This document shows positions 8,187-49,615 of a stretch of DNA of 50,838 nucleotides, piece by piece. The stretch spans positions 1 through 50,838 of IMG/VR virus record IMGVR_UViG_3300013117_000086. One strand, written 5' to 3'. Within the stretch, counting starts at the first letter, position 1. Each line of letters begins with the position of its first letter. The position numbers were made by a program, and so were the translations under genes. This DNA comes from a virus. A model generated the notes under the pieces. That model had not been told where the DNA came from and ran no database searches. It saw only the letters and a list, made by a program, of their open reading frames with translations.

Positions 8187-8242
8187 AGTATATCATATAA
8201 AAAGTTTTATGTATACACTTTTTTTAACTTTTTTTAACTTTT
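8187..8242 (-). promoter_or_regulatory. Leftward early promoter with phased A-tracts (operon 8.1 kb to primase)
   Basis: Read on the minus strand: two full 10-bp CTTTTTTTAA units plus a partial one (8218-8242), then -35 TATACA (8210-8215), an exact 17-bp spacer and -10 TATACT (8187-8192). The same layout recurs at 11420, 43700 and 49527. The T7/A7 runs are spaced by one helical turn, which should bend DNA and act as an UP element. Confidence 0.8.
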
Positions 8243-8263
8243 CACTTACCTAATTCAGTAACT

Positions 8264-8327
8264 AAAAAAAGAATTTTGTACTTTTAGGTAACTGACCTAT
8301 CGATAAAAGTATACAAAAATTCTTTTT
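8264..8327 (-). terminator. Probable terminator ending the 11.4-8.3 kb operon
   Basis: A long imperfect stem: the left arm (8264-8286) holds AAAAAGAATTTTGTACTTTTA and the right arm (8304-8327) its near complement with a 3-nt bulge. On the minus strand the stem ends in a run of U. It lies just after the stop of the 8339 gene and before the next leftward promoter. Confidence 0.5.
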
Positions 8328-11419: not shown

Positions 11420-11496
11420 AGTATAGCATAGAAATATAAAAAAGTCTACACTTTTTTTAACTTTTTTTAACTTTTTTTAACTTTTTTTAACTTTTT
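11420..11496 (-). promoter_or_regulatory. Leftward early promoter with four phased A-tract units
   Basis: Minus-strand order: four perfect CTTTTTTTAA units (11451-11490) plus a partial fifth, then -35 TAGACT (11443-11448), 17-bp spacer and -10 TATACT (11420-11425). It drives the 11.4-8.3 kb cluster. The A-tract array lies back to back with the rightward structural promoter and may serve both. Confidence 0.8.
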
Positions 11497-11503
11497 ATGG
11501 ATA

Positions 11504-12532: not shown

Positions 12533-13982
12533 CTTACATAAATTAGCTGTATTTAGTAACAATTATCTAAAAGAGAGAAAACAGGCTAGAACTAGTTTCA
12601 AGCATTATATAATTTTCATGAAAAAACATACATATGAGATGTCGTGGTTTCATGAGGTTATAATAGATGAATTAAATGATTTTATATTAAATGACGTAAA
12701 AAAACTAATGTTGTTTGCACCTCCGCAACATGGTAAAAGCGAACTATCGTCGAGGCTGGCACCTAGTTTCATATTAGGTGTTAACCCATCCTTGAAATTA
12801 GCGATAGTTTGCTATGCCAAAACAATTGCAGAGGATTTCAGTAGTGATGTACAAGAGATAATAAGCTCGCAGAAGTATGGAGAACTTTTCCCTAACACAA
12901 AAATCGATGGTGTCAGAGGGGTAAAAAGAGGGACTCTAAAGAGAAACAATTATATAGTAAAAACTTCTGAGGGTGGTTATTTGATATCGGTAGGGGTGGG
13001 CGGTCCGCTAACCTCAAAATCGGTAGATATCGCTATTATAGATGATTTATACAAGTCAAAAGAGGACGCCTGGTCGTCACTCTACAGAAACAAAGTATGG
13101 AACTGGTATTTCTATGTTTTAGAAAGAAGATTACATAGAAACAGTAAAATACTGATTCTATACACCAGGTGGCATGAGGAAGATTTGGCCGGTAAGCTGT
13201 TAGCCAGAGAGCAGGAAAACTGGCGAAAAGTTGTTTTCGAGATACTGAAAACCGGTAAAATAACAGATAAAAGAGACGTTAGAGAAGTAGGGGAGGCCCT
13301 ATGGCCTACTAAACACACAAAAGAGTCTGCTGAAAGATGGAAAAAACTTGACCCTATAAGCTTTGAGGGTCTGGGTCAACAAAATCCTAAACTCGAAAAA
13401 GGTAAGATGTATCCTCGGCATAAGGTATATGTTGAGTTGCCTGATTTTTCGGATTATCATCATATATACAAGGCCTATGGGGATACAGCCGATGAAGGGG
13501 CCGACTACCTGGCAACTGGATCTTACATAGAGTGTGATGGTTACTGTTATATAACAGAGATATTATACACTCAAGATCCTATGGAAGTTACAGAACCTTT
13601 AACAGCAGCTTTGTATGACAGGAATAATGTGAAACAGGCTTTGATAGAAAGCAATAATGGTGGTAAAGGTTTCGCTAGAGAGGTTAGAAGACATCTAAAA
13701 ACCGACCATAGCAATAATGACTGTGCGGTCAATTGGTTTCATCAAAGCGATAATAAACAGGCTCGTATCTGGTCAAATGCTGCGAAAGTAATGAATCGTG
13801 TAATCTTTCCGGACGGTTGGAAAGACAAATATCCAGACGCTTACGCCAGTTTTGTGAACTTTATGAGGGTGGGAAAAAATGAACATGACGATTTTCAGGA
13901 CTTTTTAACCGGTATAGTAGAGAATATAGAGACTATACCAGATGATGATATAGGGGTATATTTTGATAATGAAATGGTATAA
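12516..13982 (+). CDS. terL: Terminase large subunit (packaging ATPase/nuclease)
   Basis: Motor that pumps DNA into the prohead and cuts concatemers. The N-terminal ATPase has Walker A (FAPPQHGKSE, about residue 70), Walker B (DIAIIDDLYKS) and the coupling motif in ILYTRWHEEDLAG. The C-terminal RNase H-like nuclease shows acidic YGDTADEGADY and the late DDFQDFLTG. Length 488 aa is typical. ATG 12516 follows GGAGTTTATCA inside the end of the small subunit gene. Directly downstream, where the portal normally follows, lies the 488-bp inverted-repeat element. Confidence 0.93.
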   Translation: MGYKNNLHKLAVFSNNYLKERKQARTSFKHYIIFMKKHTYEMSWFHEVIIDELNDFILNDVKKLMLFAPPQHGKSELSSRLAPSFILGVNPSLKLAIVCYAKTIAEDFSSDVQEIISSQKYGELFPNTKIDGVRGVKRGTLKRNNYIVKTSEGGYLISVGVGGPLTSKSVDIAIIDDLYKSKEDAWSSLYRNKVWNWYFYVLERRLHRNSKILILYTRWHEEDLAGKLLAREQENWRKVVFEILKTGKITDKRDVREVGEALWPTKHTKESAERWKKLDPISFEGLGQQNPKLEKGKMYPRHKVYVELPDFSDYHHIYKAYGDTADEGADYLATGSYIECDGYCYITEILYTQDPMEVTEPLTAALYDRNNVKQALIESNNGGKGFAREVRRHLKTDHSNNDCAVNWFHQSDNKQARIWSNAAKVMNRVIFPDGWKDKYPDAYASFVNFMRVGKNEHDDFQDFLTGIVENIETIPDDDIGVYFDNEMV

Positions 13983-13988
13983 TATTAC

Positions 13989-14476
13989 TTTATTTTTTCG
14001 AAAAAAGTCGCCCTCAGAGAAAACGATCTTGTTGTGCGTAAGGAGACGCCGGTATTGAAAGGTATTTAGATAGTAGATTTTACAAGTTCTTTCGAAGAGG
14101 CTTGCGCCGGTGGTTAACAATTGTTAGTTATTTGCATTCCTGGTGACTCAAGGAAATGGTTTTTAGATTATTATAACTGTTATTTAATGTATTCCAGCTA
14201 ACTCAAGGAAATGGTTTAGATATATTTCAGGTACATTATTTTTATACATTTTCATTTCCTTGAGTCACCAGAAACGTAAATATACTATGTATATATTATT
14301 ACAAAACCATTTCCTTGAGTCACCAGGAACACAAAGAAATAATTGTTAACCACATTGGTACTTACAGGTCCAGGATTTTAAGGATTTTTAGGGCAAAATA
14401 TAAGGTTCAGACCCGGCGTCTCCTTACGCACAACAAGATCGTTTTCTCTGAGGGCGACTTTTTTCGAAAAAATAAA
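13989..14476. repeat. Nested inverted-repeat element between terL and portal
   Basis: Outer arms of 64 bp are perfect inverted copies (13989-14052 and 14413-14476). Moving inward: a 13-bp pair built on GTGGTTAACAATT (14110-14122 / 14341-14353), a perfect 27-bp pair containing TGACTCAAGGAAATGG (14137-14163 / 14303-14329), and a third, diverged pair with the same core (14192-14218 / 14253-14274). The CTCAAGGAAATG core thus occurs four times, two in each direction. Each outer arm contains the palindrome TTTTTTCGAAAAAA. The element starts 7 bp after the terL stop and ends about 30 bp before the portal ribosome site. I see no convincing coding frame in it. Origin, packaging signal, mobile MITE-like insertion and RNA-processing signal are all possible. 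Confidence 0.95.
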
Positions 14477-14520
14477 TATATATTAAAATACAGTACTTTT
14501 GTAAGTGGGAGGTGATAAAG

Positions 14521-15804
14521 ATTTTTAAAAAAATTAGAAAAGCAGTTTCGGAAGCTTTAAAAAAACCTTGGGGTATGGTCAGAACCTCTACTTATCAGCA
14601 GTATAGTGTGAACTTTGAAGCCTTTAAGAAAGAAGCATATAACAACCCTTTTTTCGCTGCACCCATCAATGAAATAGTAAGAACATTTAATGCAGCAGAA
14701 ATAGGTGTCTATAGAAAGGTAAAGACATCTGAAGGTGGTACTAAACTAGAAAAGGTTGAGAATCACAAGGTCAACAAATGGTTAAAAAAACCTAATTCAG
14801 GTCTTACTCAATCGACTTTTCAGAAATACTACCTGGTATGGAAGTATATCCAAGGGGGATGTCTACTTTACAAGTCTCTAGGGGTAGAAACTAGACAATT
14901 GTATATATATTCACCTGATTCTTTTAAGATAAAAAGAGACACTAATAATTTTATGATAACAGGTATCAAAATAGGTGAGAATACCATCACTGATCCTGAC
15001 GAGTTAGCTCAATATCATTTAGTAAGGGAATTTAACATCAATGATAAAATAGCGGGGCTAGACGAGAAGTTCGCGCCTGTTATATCTCCTCTAGCTAAAG
15101 TAGGTGATATGAGTAACTTTGGTTTTACCCACCAAAACTCACAACTTGCTAATTCAGGTAAAAGGGTAGGTATAGTAGAGTATAAGAAAAACCTAGGAGA
15201 GGCTAAAGCTGAGGAGTTAAACAGAAAGTTTAATGAATTAGGTAAAGGTGCGGATAACGCGGGTAACGTAGCTACAGTACATGGAGAGGATTTTAAGTTT
15301 ACTCCTATGGATGTAACCCCTCAAGAAATGGACTGGTTATCTTCTATGAAATTTGTTAGGGAGTTAATAGCCTCTACGATAGGGGTTCCTGTGCAGCTAA
15401 TATCTACGGAAGGTACTACTTATAACAATGTAAAAGAATTTAAGAAAAAACTGTATTCAGACATAACTGAGCCAGAATTAAAAGCATACAGCCAAGATAT
15501 GACAGCATTTTTAGTTGATGACCTATCAGACGACGAATTTATCTGGTACGACTTATCAGGAGTAGAAGAATTGAAAACTAATGCAGCCGATATCGTAGAG
15601 CAGCTTAACAAGGCTTTAGAGGGTAAAGTGACTATTAACGAGTTCAGAAACATAGTAAACACACTGTTAGGAGAATCTATTCAGGTTAAGCTAGAACCTA
15701 TCCCTGATAAACTAGCTGATCAGGTTTTAGTGTCTACGTCCTTGATGCCTTTATCTGATTTAGGTATATCACTAGGTACGGACGGTCCAACCGATGAAGA
15801 TTAA
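14521..15804 (+). CDS. Portal protein (HK97 type), possible AUU start
   Basis: Forms the dodecameric ring at the capsid vertex through which DNA passes. The protein starts FKKIRKAVSEALKKPW, has AYNNPFFAAPINEIVRTFN near residue 40 and the stem/wing region VRELIASTIGVPVQLIS...TYNNVKEFKK, all typical of the HK97 portal family. Start choice is unusual: GGGAGG lies exactly 8 nt before an ATT codon (14521), while the only conventional start (GTG 14512) overlaps the ribosome site itself. The C-terminus overlaps the minor head gene by 11 bp. Confidence 0.85.
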   Translation: MFKKIRKAVSEALKKPWGMVRTSTYQQYSVNFEAFKKEAYNNPFFAAPINEIVRTFNAAEIGVYRKVKTSEGGTKLEKVENHKVNKWLKKPNSGLTQSTFQKYYLVWKYIQGGCLLYKSLGVETRQLYIYSPDSFKIKRDTNNFMITGIKIGENTITDPDELAQYHLVREFNINDKIAGLDEKFAPVISPLAKVGDMSNFGFTHQNSQLANSGKRVGIVEYKKNLGEAKAEELNRKFNELGKGADNAGNVATVHGEDFKFTPMDVTPQEMDWLSSMKFVRELIASTIGVPVQLISTEGTTYNNVKEFKKKLYSDITEPELKAYSQDMTAFLVDDLSDDEFIWYDLSGVEELKTNAADIVEQLNKALEGKVTINEFRNIVNTLLGESIQVKLEPIPDKLADQVLVSTSLMPLSDLGISLGTDGPTDED

Positions 15805-39639: not shown

Positions 39640-39915
39640 TTACGAGTATTCTTCTATAAGAGCTTTTCTTATAAATTGTTTTCTAATTTTAATATGTTTC
39701 CATTTTTCTTCACCCTCTTTTGTGTACTTTATTTCTTTCTTTTTCAAAAGAGAAGGTACTGTATGGTAACTTACTCCGAATATTTCAGCGATATTTTTTC
39801 TAGTTAAAATTTCATCATAATCTTTTAATATATCGTCTACTATTATTTCTACTTCTGTAAGCTCATTAACCTCACCTGTTACTAGTTTATTTTCTTCTAT
39901 CACATTCTCCTCCAT
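39640..39915 (-). CDS. Helix-turn-helix regulator (91 aa)
   Basis: After an acidic N-terminus there is a clear helix-turn-helix (ILTRKNIAEIFGVSYHTVPS, about 40-60) and a basic wing (KKKEIKYTKEGEEKWKHIK). It has its own promoter 32 bp upstream, and so could act as an autoregulated switch within the replication operon. It is the most obvious transcription-factor-like protein in the genome, so it is a candidate for binding the palindrome at 11526-11546 or the iterons near 44.1 kb. The targets are not known. Confidence 0.75.
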   Translation of the reverse strand: MEENVIEENKLVTGEVNELTEVEIIVDDILKDYDEILTRKNIAEIFGVSYHTVPSLLKKKEIKYTKEGEEKWKHIKIRKQFIRKALIEEYS

Positions 39916-39990: not shown

Positions 39991-40878
39991 TTACAGTTTT
40001 ATATATTCTAAAACTTTAGTCTTAATATTACCAGGTACTCCATGTTTTTTAAATATATAATTCACTACTTCTTCAGAAGTAAATATATCTGACATACTAC
40101 CTAAAGTATCGTCCATGATCTGTTTTATATTTTCTTTTTTCTTTTCTATTAATTCTTTGTCGAAAGAATCTCTTAAATTTAAATTTATCCTTTCCAACAT
40201 GTTTGTATTAGTTTCGTAAATACCTACCTCTACTTCTCTGCCCATATCGTCTTTAGCAGCGGTCAGCCGTATCAGTGCCCCAGGGTTATAGATAATAGTA
40301 TTAGATTTCGAGGTAACTAAAAACTTATTATGGTTATGCCCTGTTATTATTAAATCGGCCTGAGATACTACATCTTTAGCCAAGGATGTATCAAACATTT
40401 CAACGTTTTCTGATATCATAGTATGCGTTAATATTATATTTCTTTGCATACCCATCAAATCCATATCGAAATTATTATTTCCGTAAGCGTTGAATTTAGT
40501 TACTACATCTTTAGAAATTACCTTATTTTTATTTATTATAACTTTTAAGTTAGGTACGAGTTTATCTAGTATAGCTAAACTTGTATTTTCGTAAGAATTC
40601 AATGAGTTACCTATCATATCATGATTACCTACTACAGTATATATAGTAGAGTCTGTCGGAAACATGTTCAGACATTTTTTAGCTAACAATAGTGTTTCGT
40701 TGGGTACTTTGGATTTGTCGAAAACATCACCTGTTAAAAATATAGTTTTTACTCTTTTTTCATCTAAAATCTCTGATACCTGTGTAAATTTTTCTATAAA
40801 AGTTTCTTTGATGTCATCTAATCTACTGACAGGGGTATTGATTCTGAAATGAATATCACCTATTATACCTATCTTCAT
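39991..40878 (-). CDS. sbcD: SbcD/Mre11-like nuclease subunit
   Basis: Metallophosphoesterase of the SbcD/Mre11 type, 295 residues. Metal-binding motifs in order: GIIGDIHF (DxH), FLTGDVFDK (GDxxD), VVGNHDM (GNHD), ILTHTM and ITGHNH (GHxH). With the SbcC/Rad50-like products upstream it should process DNA ends, hairpins and palindromes, as T4 gp47/gp46 do. Strong GGAGG before ATG 40878. Confidence 0.9.
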   Translation of the reverse strand: MKIGIIGDIHFRINTPVSRLDDIKETFIEKFTQVSEILDEKRVKTIFLTGDVFDKSKVPNETLLLAKKCLNMFPTDSTIYTVVGNHDMIGNSLNSYENTSLAILDKLVPNLKVIINKNKVISKDVVTKFNAYGNNNFDMDLMGMQRNIILTHTMISENVEMFDTSLAKDVVSQADLIITGHNHNKFLVTSKSNTIIYNPGALIRLTAAKDDMGREVEVGIYETNTNMLERINLNLRDSFDKELIEKKKENIKQIMDDTLGSMSDIFTSEEVVNYIFKKHGVPGNIKTKVLEYIKL

Positions 40879-41651: not shown

Positions 41652-42269
41652 TTAATCCTCCATTCTCATAATATTTATTTTATTTGTTAATTTGTCGGTT
41701 CTGTAATCGTATTTTTTATGAGATATTAAAAGTATCTGTATATTTTTTTCTTCGGAAAATCTTTTTAAAAATTCTAAAAACCTGGTAGAGGCTTCTAGAT
41801 CTACCATTTTCATAGTCTCGTCTAGTAATATGATCTTCTGTCTCTGTATATATACAGCAGATAGGTATAACAATAAACCTATGATAGTTATAATACCCCC
41901 TCCGTCTCCCTTGAAAGGATGTTTTAGGAGTAATTCATTTAAATAAAAGTCAGGTTCTATCTTACCCCTTTTCAAAACAAAGTCCATAGAGAACTTTAAT
42001 TCTTTTTCGGGATAAGTGTATTTCAGGCCTGAATTAACTATATTTTCTAACATAAAAATCTCTTGTTTTTTATAGTTAGAGATTTCCAGTATAATTTTCT
42101 TGGCTTCTTCTAAACTGTCTAGTTCTAAGCTATCTTTTAAAATTACCCTAGCCAGAGACTTTACAGACCCTTTGATAGAGTTAATTCTGAAATCTCTCTG
42201 CATAATTATAGTATTAACTCTAGCTATGCAATCACATATCGACTTTTCTAAGTATTTCTTCTGATTCAT
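41652..42269 (-). CDS. sbcC: SbcC/Rad50-like C-terminal ATPase half (separate ORF)
   Basis: Carries the C-terminal part of an SMC/Rad50 ATPase: a helical arm (to about residue 80), a signature-loop position KGDGGGIITIIGLLL (usual form LSGGE, here altered), Walker B KIILLDETMKMVD and H-loop LLISHKKYD. The Walker A half is two ORFs upstream. ATG 42269 has a GGAG site 10 nt upstream and overlaps the preceding ORF by 38 bp. This is the last of three ORFs that together equal one SbcC. Confidence 0.8.
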   Translation of the reverse strand: MNQKKYLEKSICDCIARVNTIIMQRDFRINSIKGSVKSLARVILKDSLELDSLEEAKKIILEISNYKKQEIFMLENIVNSGLKYTYPEKELKFSMDFVLKRGKIEPDFYLNELLLKHPFKGDGGGIITIIGLLLYLSAVYIQRQKIILLDETMKMVDLEASTRFLEFLKRFSEEKNIQILLISHKKYDYRTDKLTNKINIMRMED

Positions 42270-42495
42270 CTAAATCACTCTCCAACTTAGTTAAAGAATC
42301 CTCTAAAAGCTTTTCCTGCTCCAAAATAACCTCATCTATATTATCGCCGGTTACATGTATGTTTTTAGCTGCTAGAAGGTCTATTATCTCCTCAGCTTCT
42401 ATCTGCTTCTGCTTCTGTAATGTTTTGGCTTGGATGATCCTCTCGTTAATCTGATCCTTTCTTTTTAACAGCTGTTGTATCTTTTCTTCTGTCAT
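42232..42495 (-). CDS. SbcC/Rad50-like returning coiled-coil segment (87 aa, separate ORF)
   Basis: Entirely coiled coil (EEKIQQLLKRKDQINERI; LEDSLTKLESDLDESEEIL), with ATG 42495 directly after a GGGGG-type site and 2 bp from the upstream stop. In an intact SbcC this would be the strand returning from the zinc hook to the C-terminal ATPase half. Its end overlaps the next ORF by 38 bp in another frame. Confidence 0.7.
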   Translation of the reverse strand: MTEEKIQQLLKRKDQINERIIQAKTLQKQKQIEAEEIIDLLAAKNIHVTGDNIDEVILEQEKLLEDSLTKLESDLDESEEILRKVDM

Positions 42496-42497
42496 TG

Positions 42498-43670
42498 TTA
42501 ACCCCCTATTTGTTTTTTACACAAAGGACATGCCTGTCCTTTTAATTCATTGTCTATGTCAGATAATTCATCCGAATAACCTGATAGTTCATCCTCTGAT
42601 GCATGGTACATATTTATTTTCTTTTTTAAATTTCTAAGTGTTTTCACACTATCATAGATATCGCTAGATGAATCAGTTATTTTAGTTACTTCTATATTGC
42701 AATGTAAAAGTTTTTCTTTGTATTCTTTAAGTTTTTCTAATGTAAAATATTCTGCTGTAGAATTAATTCTATGTAAAGTAAAATCATATTTATTCAGACT
42801 TTTCAACTGGTTTAACATAGATAAAGACTTGTATATGCTTTCACAGTCAGTAGACAATGAGTCTAGTAGTTTTATAGCATTTAGACTTATTTTTTCCTTA
42901 TACCTGATAAGTTCTTTTAGTACAGATCGAATATCGTTAAGTTTAGCTACAGTGACTTTGCAGGTTAAATCTTTTATACTAGATAGAAATTTTATGTCTA
43001 CAGACAGTCTATATAACCTGCTGAATATAGTAACGTCGTAATCTAGTTTATCAGGTATCACATGCTGTATTACTTTTAGATTTTTTAACAATAAATGCAA
43101 ATTGTTTGATACTTCTAGTTCGCTTTTTATGATAGACCCGTCTAGGGTTATTTTCGATAAAGCGTCTAAATCATCTAATTTAGAATCTAACTTAACCTGA
43201 TTACTATCTACAGAAGATTTGAGTGATGTTATATCTTTTGATATGTCGGATAAACCTTTCTCTATATTCTCTATATCAAATAACTCGTTTAGTATGTTTA
43301 TCCTCTCTCCAGGTTTATCTGATAACAGATAAATACTATCAAACTGACTATACAAAACTAATTTTAAGTCTATTCTAATTAAATTTTCCAGAGGTTCTTT
43401 CGTGGTACCGACCTCTTTACCATCGAGATACACAAAATATTTAGTACCTTTGCAGTATCTTTCTACGGTAAACTTTTCAGTGATTATTTTTACAGAGCTT
43501 GAGTTCTCTCCGTCAGTGATAAAATTATTCTTACCGCCATGTATAAGCCAATGGATCGCATGGAAGATAGCTGATTTACCGGAACCGTTAGTTCCTGTTA
43601 GAACAGCTAAACTGCTAAATGATATATCTAAGTTTCTGTGACACATGTAATTTTTTATAAGTATCTTCAT
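42498..43670 (-). CDS. sbcC: SbcC/Rad50-like N-terminal ATPase half ending at the zinc hook
   Basis: 390 residues. Walker A is LTGTNGSGKSAIFHAI (about residue 30), the Q-loop region is VLYSQFDSIYLL, followed by about 220 residues of coiled coil. The protein stops 6 residues after CPLCKKQ, the CxxC zinc hook that in normal SbcC lies in the middle of the chain. First gene of its operon, with a strong AGGAGG and the promoter at 43700. The stop is followed at once by the coiled-coil ORF, so this is a clean split rather than random truncation. Confidence 0.85.
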   Translation of the reverse strand: MKILIKNYMCHRNLDISFSSLAVLTGTNGSGKSAIFHAIHWLIHGGKNNFITDGENSSSVKIITEKFTVERYCKGTKYFVYLDGKEVGTTKEPLENLIRIDLKLVLYSQFDSIYLLSDKPGERINILNELFDIENIEKGLSDISKDITSLKSSVDSNQVKLDSKLDDLDALSKITLDGSIIKSELEVSNNLHLLLKNLKVIQHVIPDKLDYDVTIFSRLYRLSVDIKFLSSIKDLTCKVTVAKLNDIRSVLKELIRYKEKISLNAIKLLDSLSTDCESIYKSLSMLNQLKSLNKYDFTLHRINSTAEYFTLEKLKEYKEKLLHCNIEVTKITDSSSDIYDSVKTLRNLKKKINMYHASEDELSGYSDELSDIDNELKGQACPLCKKQIGG

Positions 43671-43699
43671 TTTTACTAATCACCTCCTAACAGTGAGTT

Positions 43700-43764
43700 A
43701 TTTTAACATAAAAAAGACTGTTTGTCTACACTTTTTTTAACTTTTTTTAACTTTTTTTAACTTA
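43700..43764 (-). promoter_or_regulatory. Leftward early promoter of the recombination/replication operon
   Basis: Minus strand: three perfect CTTTTTTTAA units (43731-43760), -35 TAGACA (43723-43728), 17-bp spacer, -10 TAAAAT (43700-43705). Same architecture as at 8187, 11420 and 49527. It drives the SbcC-to-dUTPase operon. Confidence 0.8.
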
Positions 43765-44259
43765 ACTACTCTTTCGTTTAGCAATTGTAAGTATACTTAT
43801 TTTTTTTTTTTTTTATTTATTTTTTCATTCCCTTGAGTCAATAGAAATGTATTATATTAAGTATATATGAAATATATGATACATATAGTAAAAGTGTAAA
43901 TAATTTATAAAAAGTTAAGAAAAGTGTTTCTGTCGTTGAGTACATGTTTTTTACCTTTTTTAATTTTTTACTTTTTAAAACTTTTTTTTCTGGAAAAACT
44001 GGTACACAGATTTTCGAAGTTTAAGAAAAGTTAACAAAAGTTATAAAAACTATTCGTAAAAAGTTAATAAAAGTGTAAAAATACAGTAAAAGTGTGTACC
44101 ACCTATGTACCACCTATGTACCACTTAGCTTTAAAATGTACCAGTTTTGAGGGTAAATGTACCACTTATTAGACCGGTTTACTAAAAAACTGCGAGATCG
44201 TGAAAACGGGTGCGAACCCAACGACATTTTTGTTATATATGAAATATATGATAGAACCT
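43765..44259. other. Origin-like intergenic region with iterons and repeats
   Basis: A 495-bp AT-rich non-coding region. It contains a T14 run (43801-43814), a diverged copy of the TTGAGTCA core of the 14-kb element (43826-43850), AAAAGTTA/AAAAGTGTAA-type short repeats, an inverted TGGTACA (44000-44006), five direct TGTACCA iterons at 44095, 44106, 44117, 44137 and 44158 (spacings 11, 11, 20, 21), and an exact 20-bp direct repeat (43862-43881 and 44234-44253) framing most of it. Phased iterons, AT-rich DNA and position between early operons suggest a replication origin; a regulator-binding array is the alternative. Confidence 0.6.
44095..44164 (+). repeat. TGTACCA iteron array (5 copies)
   Basis: The first three copies form a tandem repeat with 11-bp unit TGTACCACCTA (44095-44127, last unit one mismatch); two more stand 20 and 21 bp further on. 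All five face one side of the helix. A sixth, inverted copy is at 44000-44006. Confidence 0.85.
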
Positions 44260-45168
44260 TTACATAAATGGTGTTATAAATAACCAACTTCCATCACTTA
44301 ATTTTTTTATCATACGGTCATATGTGTAATATGTAGTTTCTTCACACACAATAAAACCCAATTGATCTCGAGTATATACTTTAAATGAATCCATCATAAC
44401 AGATAAGTCTTTGTTATGTTTGTAAACTAGATATTTTCTCTCTTCTGGCGATTTTTCTGGCTCTGTTTTTACATTTATGTAGATATCTATATTCTTTTTT
44501 ACAATATTAAATATTTCTTTTTGTAATTCAAAACTAGTGATACCAGCACTGTTCAATTTATTCAATATAGTTTTGAACAGGTTGTAGGTGTACACTTTAG
44601 TTTTTAACTCATTAACTATAGTAGAACTGCTTTTCGCGTAGAATTTACTAATCTGTCCATAATCTTTTATGACAGCAGTAATGAATAAATTAGATATTTT
44701 AATATCTTCCTCTGTTAATAGTTCTGGATTCATACTACATAATCTATCAATATTAGAAACCTTTGTATACAAATATTTTTCACCCTGCAGTATAATACTA
44801 TACCATCCGTTCAAATGTGATTTATTTTCTTTAACAGTTTCTAAACGTACTAACATTCCTGGTTTTAACTCGCCCGGCTCTTTAACTACTATATATTTTC
44901 TAATATAATCCTCAGAATCTTCTTCCGGTAAATCTTCTTCCGGTAAATCTTCTTCCGGTAAATCTTCTTCCGGTAAATCTTCTTCCGGAAGAAATAAACT
45001 ACCGTGAATTACTGGAAATTCAAAAGTAAATCCGTCTTTCATTCTTAAACTAGCTACTGATCTATTTTCCGATAATATAACCTTTTCTACATCATCTAAC
45101 CTATACTTTGTAGGTTTCTTTTTACGTTCCAGCAAAAGAAACGCGGCTAACCTTTCCATATTAGTCAT
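44260..45168 (-). CDS. Hypothetical protein with DLPEE repeats (302 aa)
   Basis: A basic N-terminal domain (MTNMERLAAFLLLERKKK) is followed by an acidic linker of five DLPEE/DLPEED units, a beta-rich domain (VVKEPGELKPGMLVRLETV...LNGWYSIILQG) and a C-terminal helical domain. The SH3-like segment is similar in style to proteins at 45590-46330. ATG 45168 follows GAGGAGGGTAAC; the longer upstream frame overlaps the zinc-ribbon gene that is read in another frame. Function unknown. The repeat number is likely to vary. Confidence 0.7.
   Translation of the reverse strand: MTNMERLAAFLLLERKKKPTKYRLDDVEKVILSENRSVASLRMKDGFTFEFPVIHGSLFLPEEDLPEEDLPEEDLPEEDLPEEDSEDYIRKYIVVKEPGELKPGMLVRLETVKENKSHLNGWYSIILQGEKYLYTKVSNIDRLCSMNPELLTEEDIKISNLFITAVIKDYGQISKFYAKSSSTIVNELKTKVYTYNLFKTILNKLNSAGITSFELQKEIFNIVKKNIDIYINVKTEPEKSPEERKYLVYKHNKDLSVMMDSFKVYTRDQLGFIVCEETTYYTYDRMIKKLSDGSWLFITPFM
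44921..44990. repeat. 15-bp coding tandem repeat (DLPEE)
   Basis: Four perfect copies of TCTTCCGGTAAATCT plus a partial fifth, coding on the minus strand for DLPEE. The unit is a multiple of 3, so copy-number change keeps the frame and alters only linker length. Confidence 0.95.
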
Positions 45169-46339: not shown

Positions 46340-47154
46340 CTATAAATCCAAAGTTTCCTGAAATGTGACATCTTCAGCATCTTCTACCCCGAGTTTACCG
46401 CCTTTAATAAAATACTGGTGGATCAGAGTGTTTATGCTTCTAGCACCTACAGTATTATTGTCATAGTTTTTAGTTATAAAATCTTTTACCGTTTCTATAA
46501 CTTCAGTTTTGTTTACTTTACTGAATATTTTTAAGTAATCATTTAGTAAACTGCTATTATCTAAAATCTCACATAGATCTTTAAGCGATAGTTTTTCTGT
46601 ATTGTAAATAAGACCTACTCGGCCTAAAAACTCAGTTTTAACTCCAAATTTTCTTAATTTATCTAAATTTATGTGCGGATCATTATTAAAAGCCCCTGCG
46701 AAAATAAACAGTGTTTTACTTATATCTATATCATTGTATTTACCGTAGTCTCCGAAAACCTGCGTGGTAGGTGCCTCTAAGAGTTTCAAAAACTCATTTT
46801 GCACTCCTGTGGTTACCTCATTAGCTAACTCCCCGTTGTTACCCGATATATAAAGTTTATCCCATTCATCTACGAATATGATCAGCGGCAATCCTGTATA
46901 CTTTCCAGCTGAAGCTAAAACTTTACTCAAACTATTACCGGAAGTACCTTCCTTGGTTATTTGTGCTGCATTTATTTCTATATAAGGTAGTTTTTTAGCT
47001 GCACAACATTCTTTAGTTATATATATGTTTTACCTGACCCAGATGGTCCTGCTAGTACGAAATGAGGTCTTACCGCACCCTTACCAGCTTTAAAAATATC
47101 TAAAACCCTGTTTAATTCCTCTGTTAATTTTTCCTGCCCTATCACTGTTTTCAT
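46340..47154 (-). pseudogene. ClpX-like AAA+ ATPase, interrupted at a TA repeat
   Basis: From ATG 47154 the frame gives VIGQEKLTEELNRVLDIF and Walker A (LAGPSGSGKTYI), then stops at 47017. The -1 frame continues ITKECCAAKKLPYIEIN, Walker B (LIIFVDEWDKL), sensor 1 (TLFIFAGAFN), arginine finger (KTEFLGRVG) and sensor 2 (VGARSINTL), to 46340. The break is in a TATATATAT run (47018-47026). Deleting one TA joins both into a 270-residue ClpX-like protein without the N-terminal zinc domain. It might redirect ClpP or remodel a phage complex. Mutation, phase variation and sequencing error cannot be separated here. Confidence 0.8.
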
Positions 47155-49526: not shown

Positions 49527-49602
49527 AGTATACCATAAAAGATAGTTTATGTCTACACTTTTTTTAACTTTTTTTAACTTTTTTTAACTTTTTTAACTTT
49601 TT
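49527..49602 (-). promoter_or_regulatory. Leftward early promoter of the 49.5-44.3 kb operon
   Basis: Minus strand: three perfect CTTTTTTTAA units (49558-49587) plus a 9-bp variant, -35 TAGACA (49550-49555), 17-bp spacer, -10 TATACT (49527-49532). It lies between the primase terminator and the first micro-gene, and is the clearest member of the promoter family. Confidence 0.85.
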
Positions 49603-49615
49603 ATTTATTTATAAA

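Follow-up and report, generated by a model that had tools for sequence, protein, structure and literature searches.

The circle-to-concatemer switch is known in detail for few phages. In P4, an element with a primase-helicase, ori and crr are separated cis regions with common short initiator motifs. In phage SPP1, the conserved order of the head genes is broken by a late-region segment containing oriR, which has initiator-bound repeats and an AT-rich element in common with oriL. With its initiator bound, oriR is proposed to stall the replication fork and bring about the switch to concatemers, helped by a resolvase and an exonuclease (PMC6316719, PMC3485210).

We analyzed a block of DNA between the terL and portal genes of a phage and compared it with these systems. 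Like SPP1 oriR, the block is late-region and non-coding and interrupts the head gene order, with a 529-bp gap between two genes that are mostly adjacent in relatives. It resembles oriR in part in its AT-rich DNA, its repeated binding-site-like motifs, and a related site in the replication region. The phage, like SPP1, encodes a resolvase and an exonuclease. However, its primase-helicase and replication proteins are of a different type. The block has an AT-rich centre (23% GC) and two direct pairs spaced at 55 bp, but these are set in an inverted-repeat layout. Whereas oriR and oriL resemble each other in organization, here one core site is shared with the region at 43.8 kb and the organization is not common. 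The likeness to P4 is by description only, as two separated cis regions; the P4 motif and its arrangement are unlike those of the block. A further difference lies in the nested inverted repeats and their perfect 64-bp arms; no such arms are described for oriR in the parts of the SPP1 accounts used here. Neither Pfam nor PHROGs named a gp38-type initiator in the scanned proteins, several of which have no family match.

The window (the whole stretch of DNA analyzed) is IMG/VR record IMGVR_UViG_3300013117_000086, 50,838 bases long. Its opening and closing 18 bases are identical, and when these ends are joined a stop-free minus-strand ORF of 802 codons bridges the junction, encoding the primase-helicase (DUF5906 and D5-like match); the genome is therefore a circle of 50,820 bp, and the map looks complete. 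The phage is tailed, unclassified so far, and virulent-looking, and neither an integrase nor a transposase was recognized among the proteins scanned. Its late genes (terS, terL, portal, head, and tail) lie between 11.5 and 34 kb on the plus strand, with the replication genes and small genes on the minus strand. GC skew tracks gene direction only, and an independent origin signal is absent. The replication and recombination set comprises the primase-helicase, PolA, DNA ligase, a RecU-like resolvase, a 5′-3′ exonuclease, and SbcCD-like genes, the last in agreement with the original prediction: an SbcD-like phosphoesterase and a split SbcC-like ATPase are present. The SbcC-like gene (41652-43670) has a small ORF, 42232-42495, between its two halves. 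For TerL, the nearest phages are those of Bacteroides (∼40% identity). The nearest PolA match, in a Bacillus phage (38%), together with the weak RecU match of the resolvase and Shine-Dalgarno-like motifs in 18 of 30 inspected genes, weakly suggests a Firmicutes-like host.

Downstream of the terL stop (13982), the non-coding gap is filled by a mirror-symmetric block of ∼490 bases (506 bp as compared with itself), whose dyad is centred at ∼14232.5 (Table 1). The outer arms are complementary at 64 of 64 positions and, when stretched to 80 bp (13980-14059 and 14406-14485), at 93%. Further in lie a 13-bp pair, GTGGTTAACAATT (14110-14122 and 14341-14353), within blocks B and B′, then the perfect 27-bp pair, and then the diverged third pair. 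The original prediction had described the arms, all three inner pairs, and a block filling a gap where terL and portal are usually adjacent, and each of these observations held. Against its own reverse complement, the 506-bp block is 71% identical; in ten-column steps, the halves agree perfectly across the outer arms, then at about half of the positions, and then again at blocks B and C, inward to the centre. Across the 2.42 Mb of phage-type sequence examined, exact inverted repeats (≥25 bp, within 1 kb) occurred on only one other contig, where they consist of low-complexity AT repeats. The inverted repeat is far beyond chance.

Left and right spacers between the paired blocks match at a near-random level, and their spacing is kept within 2-3 bp. 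Since the spacers have drifted in sequence but hardly in length, the blocks appear to be needed and the spacers not, and the pattern points to an old symmetry with selectively kept blocks. Recent duplication, which had been suggested for the perfect arms beside diverged inner pairs, fits this pattern poorly. An assembly artefact or a sequencing fold-back chimera is also unlikely, given that no spacer is the same in the two halves. Cruciform extrusion from the duplex would be unfavourable, since the 30-40 bases at the centre have no pairing partner; the arms would pair more easily in single strands.

Table 1. Positions of the inverted-repeat block's parts and of other features in the window
Feature	Position	Strand	Remarks
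Outer arm A (left)	13989-14052	+	Perfect, 64 bp; high G+C for the genome
Block B	14110-14125	+	GTGGTTAACAATTGTT
Block C, core site 1	14137-14163	+	TTCCTGGTGACTCAAGGAAATGGTTTT, 27 bp
AT-rich centre	14160-14305		23% GC vs. 34% genome-wide
Block D, core site 2	14192-14213	+	Diverged left half, ∼22 bp
Block D′, core site 3	14253-14274	-	D/D′ pair at 82%
Block C′, core site 4	14303-14329	-	Perfect complement of C
Block B′	14338-14353	-	15/16 match to B
Outer arm A′ (right)	14413-14476	-	Perfect complement of A
SbcD-like phosphoesterase	39991-40878		
SbcC-like ATPase, C-terminal half	41652-42269		Separate ORF
SbcC-like ATPase, N-terminal ATPase half	42498-43670		Separate ORF
Largest non-coding region	43671-44259		589 bp, AT-rich; contains AAAAGTTAA repeats and, at 44094-44169, four ATGTACCACCTAT-type iterons
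Fifth core site	43819-43850 (∼43826)	-	ATTTCTATTGACTCAAGGGAATGAAAA; within the 589-bp region, the one large non-coding stretch besides the terL-portal gap
Intergenic regions with [GTTAAAAAAA]n-GTGTAGAC-like repeats	8191-8267, 11424-11500, 43704-43780, 49531-49607	-	

The core of the block is a 19-bp dyad, TTCCTGGTGACTCAAGGAA, in which the half-sites of TTCCTGGTG-A-CTCAAGGAA agree at 7 of 9 positions as read from the sequence, and which looks operator- or initiator-like. The count of four cores, two per direction, given in the original prediction is right for exact CTCAAGGAAATG matches (14147 and 14202 on the plus strand, 14253 and 14308 on the minus strand, no other in the genome), but it missed a fifth site, and the direction of the sites is less meaningful than it seemed because each core is itself a dyad. 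As 16-mers, the four sites begin at 14143, 14198, 14253, and 14308, in exact 55-bp steps, an evenness not to be over-read because the sites face both directions and their dyad centres step unevenly, by 55, 64, and 55 bp. When the genome was scanned with a matrix derived solely from the element's four sites, the fifth site scored 21.7, compared with 7.9 for the next real site and 19.2 for the best of 200 simulated genomes. Genome-wide, the core has five sites only, four in the element and one at ∼43.83 kb, near replication and recombination genes. The region around this fifth site (43671-44259) is probably the main origin; its iterons (TGTACCA) are missing from the block. What is new here is the core as a 19-bp dyad and its fifth copy beside the probable origin.

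The original prediction offered four interpretations of the block: a second origin, a packaging site, a non-autonomous mobile element, or a long RNase III-processed RNA stem. A second origin or other cis-acting site is the best supported, with the core recurring once in the origin-like region at 43.7-44.2 kb and SPP1 as precedent, and the mobile element is disfavoured; for the packaging site and the RNase III stem, there is position and pairing and no positive evidence beyond these. We favour a DNA site to which a phage protein would bind because the core motif links the block to the origin-like region. Our tentative reading, advanced as a serious possibility, is that the block is a phage-specific cis-acting site with a role in late-region replication control, as a second origin or a fork barrier similar to SPP1 oriR. 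The fifth core site in an iteron-bearing, AT-rich, non-coding region, the low-GC centre of the block, the kept blocks beside drifted spacers, and the circular genome with its replication and recombination set support this replication-control reading. The single shared site, the different primase-helicase and the failure to identify a gp38 homologue among the scanned proteins, the long perfect arms, the lack of iterons in the block, a skew without an origin signal, and TerL relatives lacking the block count against it.

Under the replication-control reading, one phage DNA-binding protein, an initiator or an accessory protein, would bind at both 14.2 and 43.8 kb; candidates are a 91-aa helix-turn-helix protein (39640-39915), the primase-helicase, and TerS. 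At 43.8 kb, it would work together with the main origin. Around the AT-rich DNA at 14.2 kb, where it has four sites, it would either open a second origin or hold an arriving fork. The phage nucleases (RecU-like resolvase, SbcCD-like nuclease, and 5′-3′ exonuclease) would then break or restart the fork and so set off the synthesis of concatemers to be packaged, in line with the proposal for SPP1 oriR, and the arms, able to pair in single-stranded DNA, may help to form or limit the fork structure. In a more specific and improbable version, the block would be a programmed break-and-restart site, at which the interrupted palindrome forms a hairpin at a held fork and is cut by the SbcCD-like and RecU-like nucleases, giving recombination-dependent concatemers beside the packaging genes. 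If the block does control replication, it would be a directly testable example, in a virulent phage, of the passage from circle replication to packaged concatemers, and the phage would be exploiting a long inverted repeat, usually deemed unstable DNA, with a palindrome nuclease that it encodes itself.

Among the alternatives, action at the RNA level survives best, although we consider it unlikely. The late operon traverses the block, and its transcript could fold between terL and portal into a very long stem. Cut by RNase III or limiting read-through, this stem could determine how much terminase is made relative to head proteins. The plus strand folds at -234.6 kcal/mol (z-score of -22.9 vs. 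shuffles), and each outer edge has an outward-facing, weak terminator-like hairpin with T6 after it. However, these hairpins are feeble (-5.9 kcal/mol), the fifth core site belongs to a different transcript and has no nearby partner, and a conserved 19-bp dyad is not required by RNA pairing. No Rfam family reached its gathering cut-off for the block; matches to plant microRNA families, far below gathering scores, arise because the block is a long hairpin and were discarded.

A non-autonomous, MITE-like element inserted between terL and portal, with the arms as terminal inverted repeats, is rather unlikely as well. The arm boundaries are sharp on both the inner and outer sides, arm G+C exceeds that of the phage, TerL relatives have neither the gap nor the element, and TA flanks both TTTTTTCGAAAAAA ends. 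Like TIMEs and other MITEs (PMC4133298), the block is short and non-coding with inverted ends, but the ends of TIMEs, which derive from Tn3, are 38 bp long, starting with GGGG and finishing with TAAG, whereas the block has no GGGG; TIMEs carry a 5-bp target duplication, whereas the flanks of the block, TAATATTAC and TATATATTA, show none. The only flanking direct repeat, TTTTTTCGAAAAAA, is a palindrome and part of the arms. A Tn3-family origin of the arms was also considered and rejected, the similarity to Tn3-family ends being marginal and in different registers. A MITE should have further copies, but searches of phage, plasmid, IMG/VR, and GTDB collections gave, at the sensitivities used, no copy in support of a mobile element: nothing similar was present among 50,697 phage and 72,556 plasmid records, exact 25-mers gave no copy in IMG/VR, and GTDB genomes yielded none. 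Two 17-mer matches were on contigs of 118 and 68 kb; the sole genome-contig match to a 20-mer arose by chance and lacked any surrounding arm. With a relaxed two-site pattern, many spaced matches appeared, which look like coding repeats. The mobile element is disfavoured because no copy was found elsewhere, no target duplication is convincing, and a phage-wide motif lies inside it, recurring at a phage regulatory region; nor did the scanned proteins include a transposase.

We compared 46 loci with related TerL (identity of about 30-45%). The gene after terL mostly starts no more than 50 bp past its stop codon, although a few gaps reach up to 467 bp, and a comparable inverted repeat is absent, the best within 600 bp scoring at most 12, compared with 64 here. 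Searching directly in the source records of the best TerL relatives gave short, chance-level matches only. Relatives were sought through TerL, the major head protein, and TerL alignments, and the closest among the matches listed have TerL at about 40-45%. Because neither the TerL relatives nor the 2.42 Mb hold a counterpart, the block is, within the sampling so far, private to this lineage.

This absence from relatives would also suit a by-product of fold-back template switching, retained without function, since such inverted duplication can yield dyad-symmetric blocks; yet perfect blocks and kept spacing beside near-random spacers are hard to obtain without selection or repeated conversion, and a compact genome should shed a useless block of 490 bp, which makes this quite unlikely. 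A packaging site (pac or cos) with the small terminase bound is very doubtful: the block adjoins terS-terL and an oligomeric protein could sit on its four ordered sites, but the fifth core site lies 21 kb off by the shorter way round the circle, and SPP1 pac overlaps the start of terS and is not in the terL-portal gap (PMC6316719).

Several further features of the genome were observed. The listed GTG start of portal, at 14512, overlaps a strong Shine-Dalgarno motif (GGGAGGTGAT; region 14505-14523), and portal translation may therefore start downstream at a non-ATG codon, such as ATT. The AAA ATPase-like protein encoded at 46340-46930 has 50-58% identity to proteins of N4-like and other Gram-negative-host phages and is much better conserved than TerL, portal, or PolA; as a route to close relatives, it reached only N4-like and other unrelated phages. 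At 44916-44990, a 15-bp tandem repeat codes for an LPEED run in a 326-aa protein without a family match. Finally, the four intergenic regions with [GTTAAAAAAA]n-GTGTAGAC-like repeats in common all sit upstream of minus-strand genes and are probably a class of early phage promoters with A-tract enhancers.
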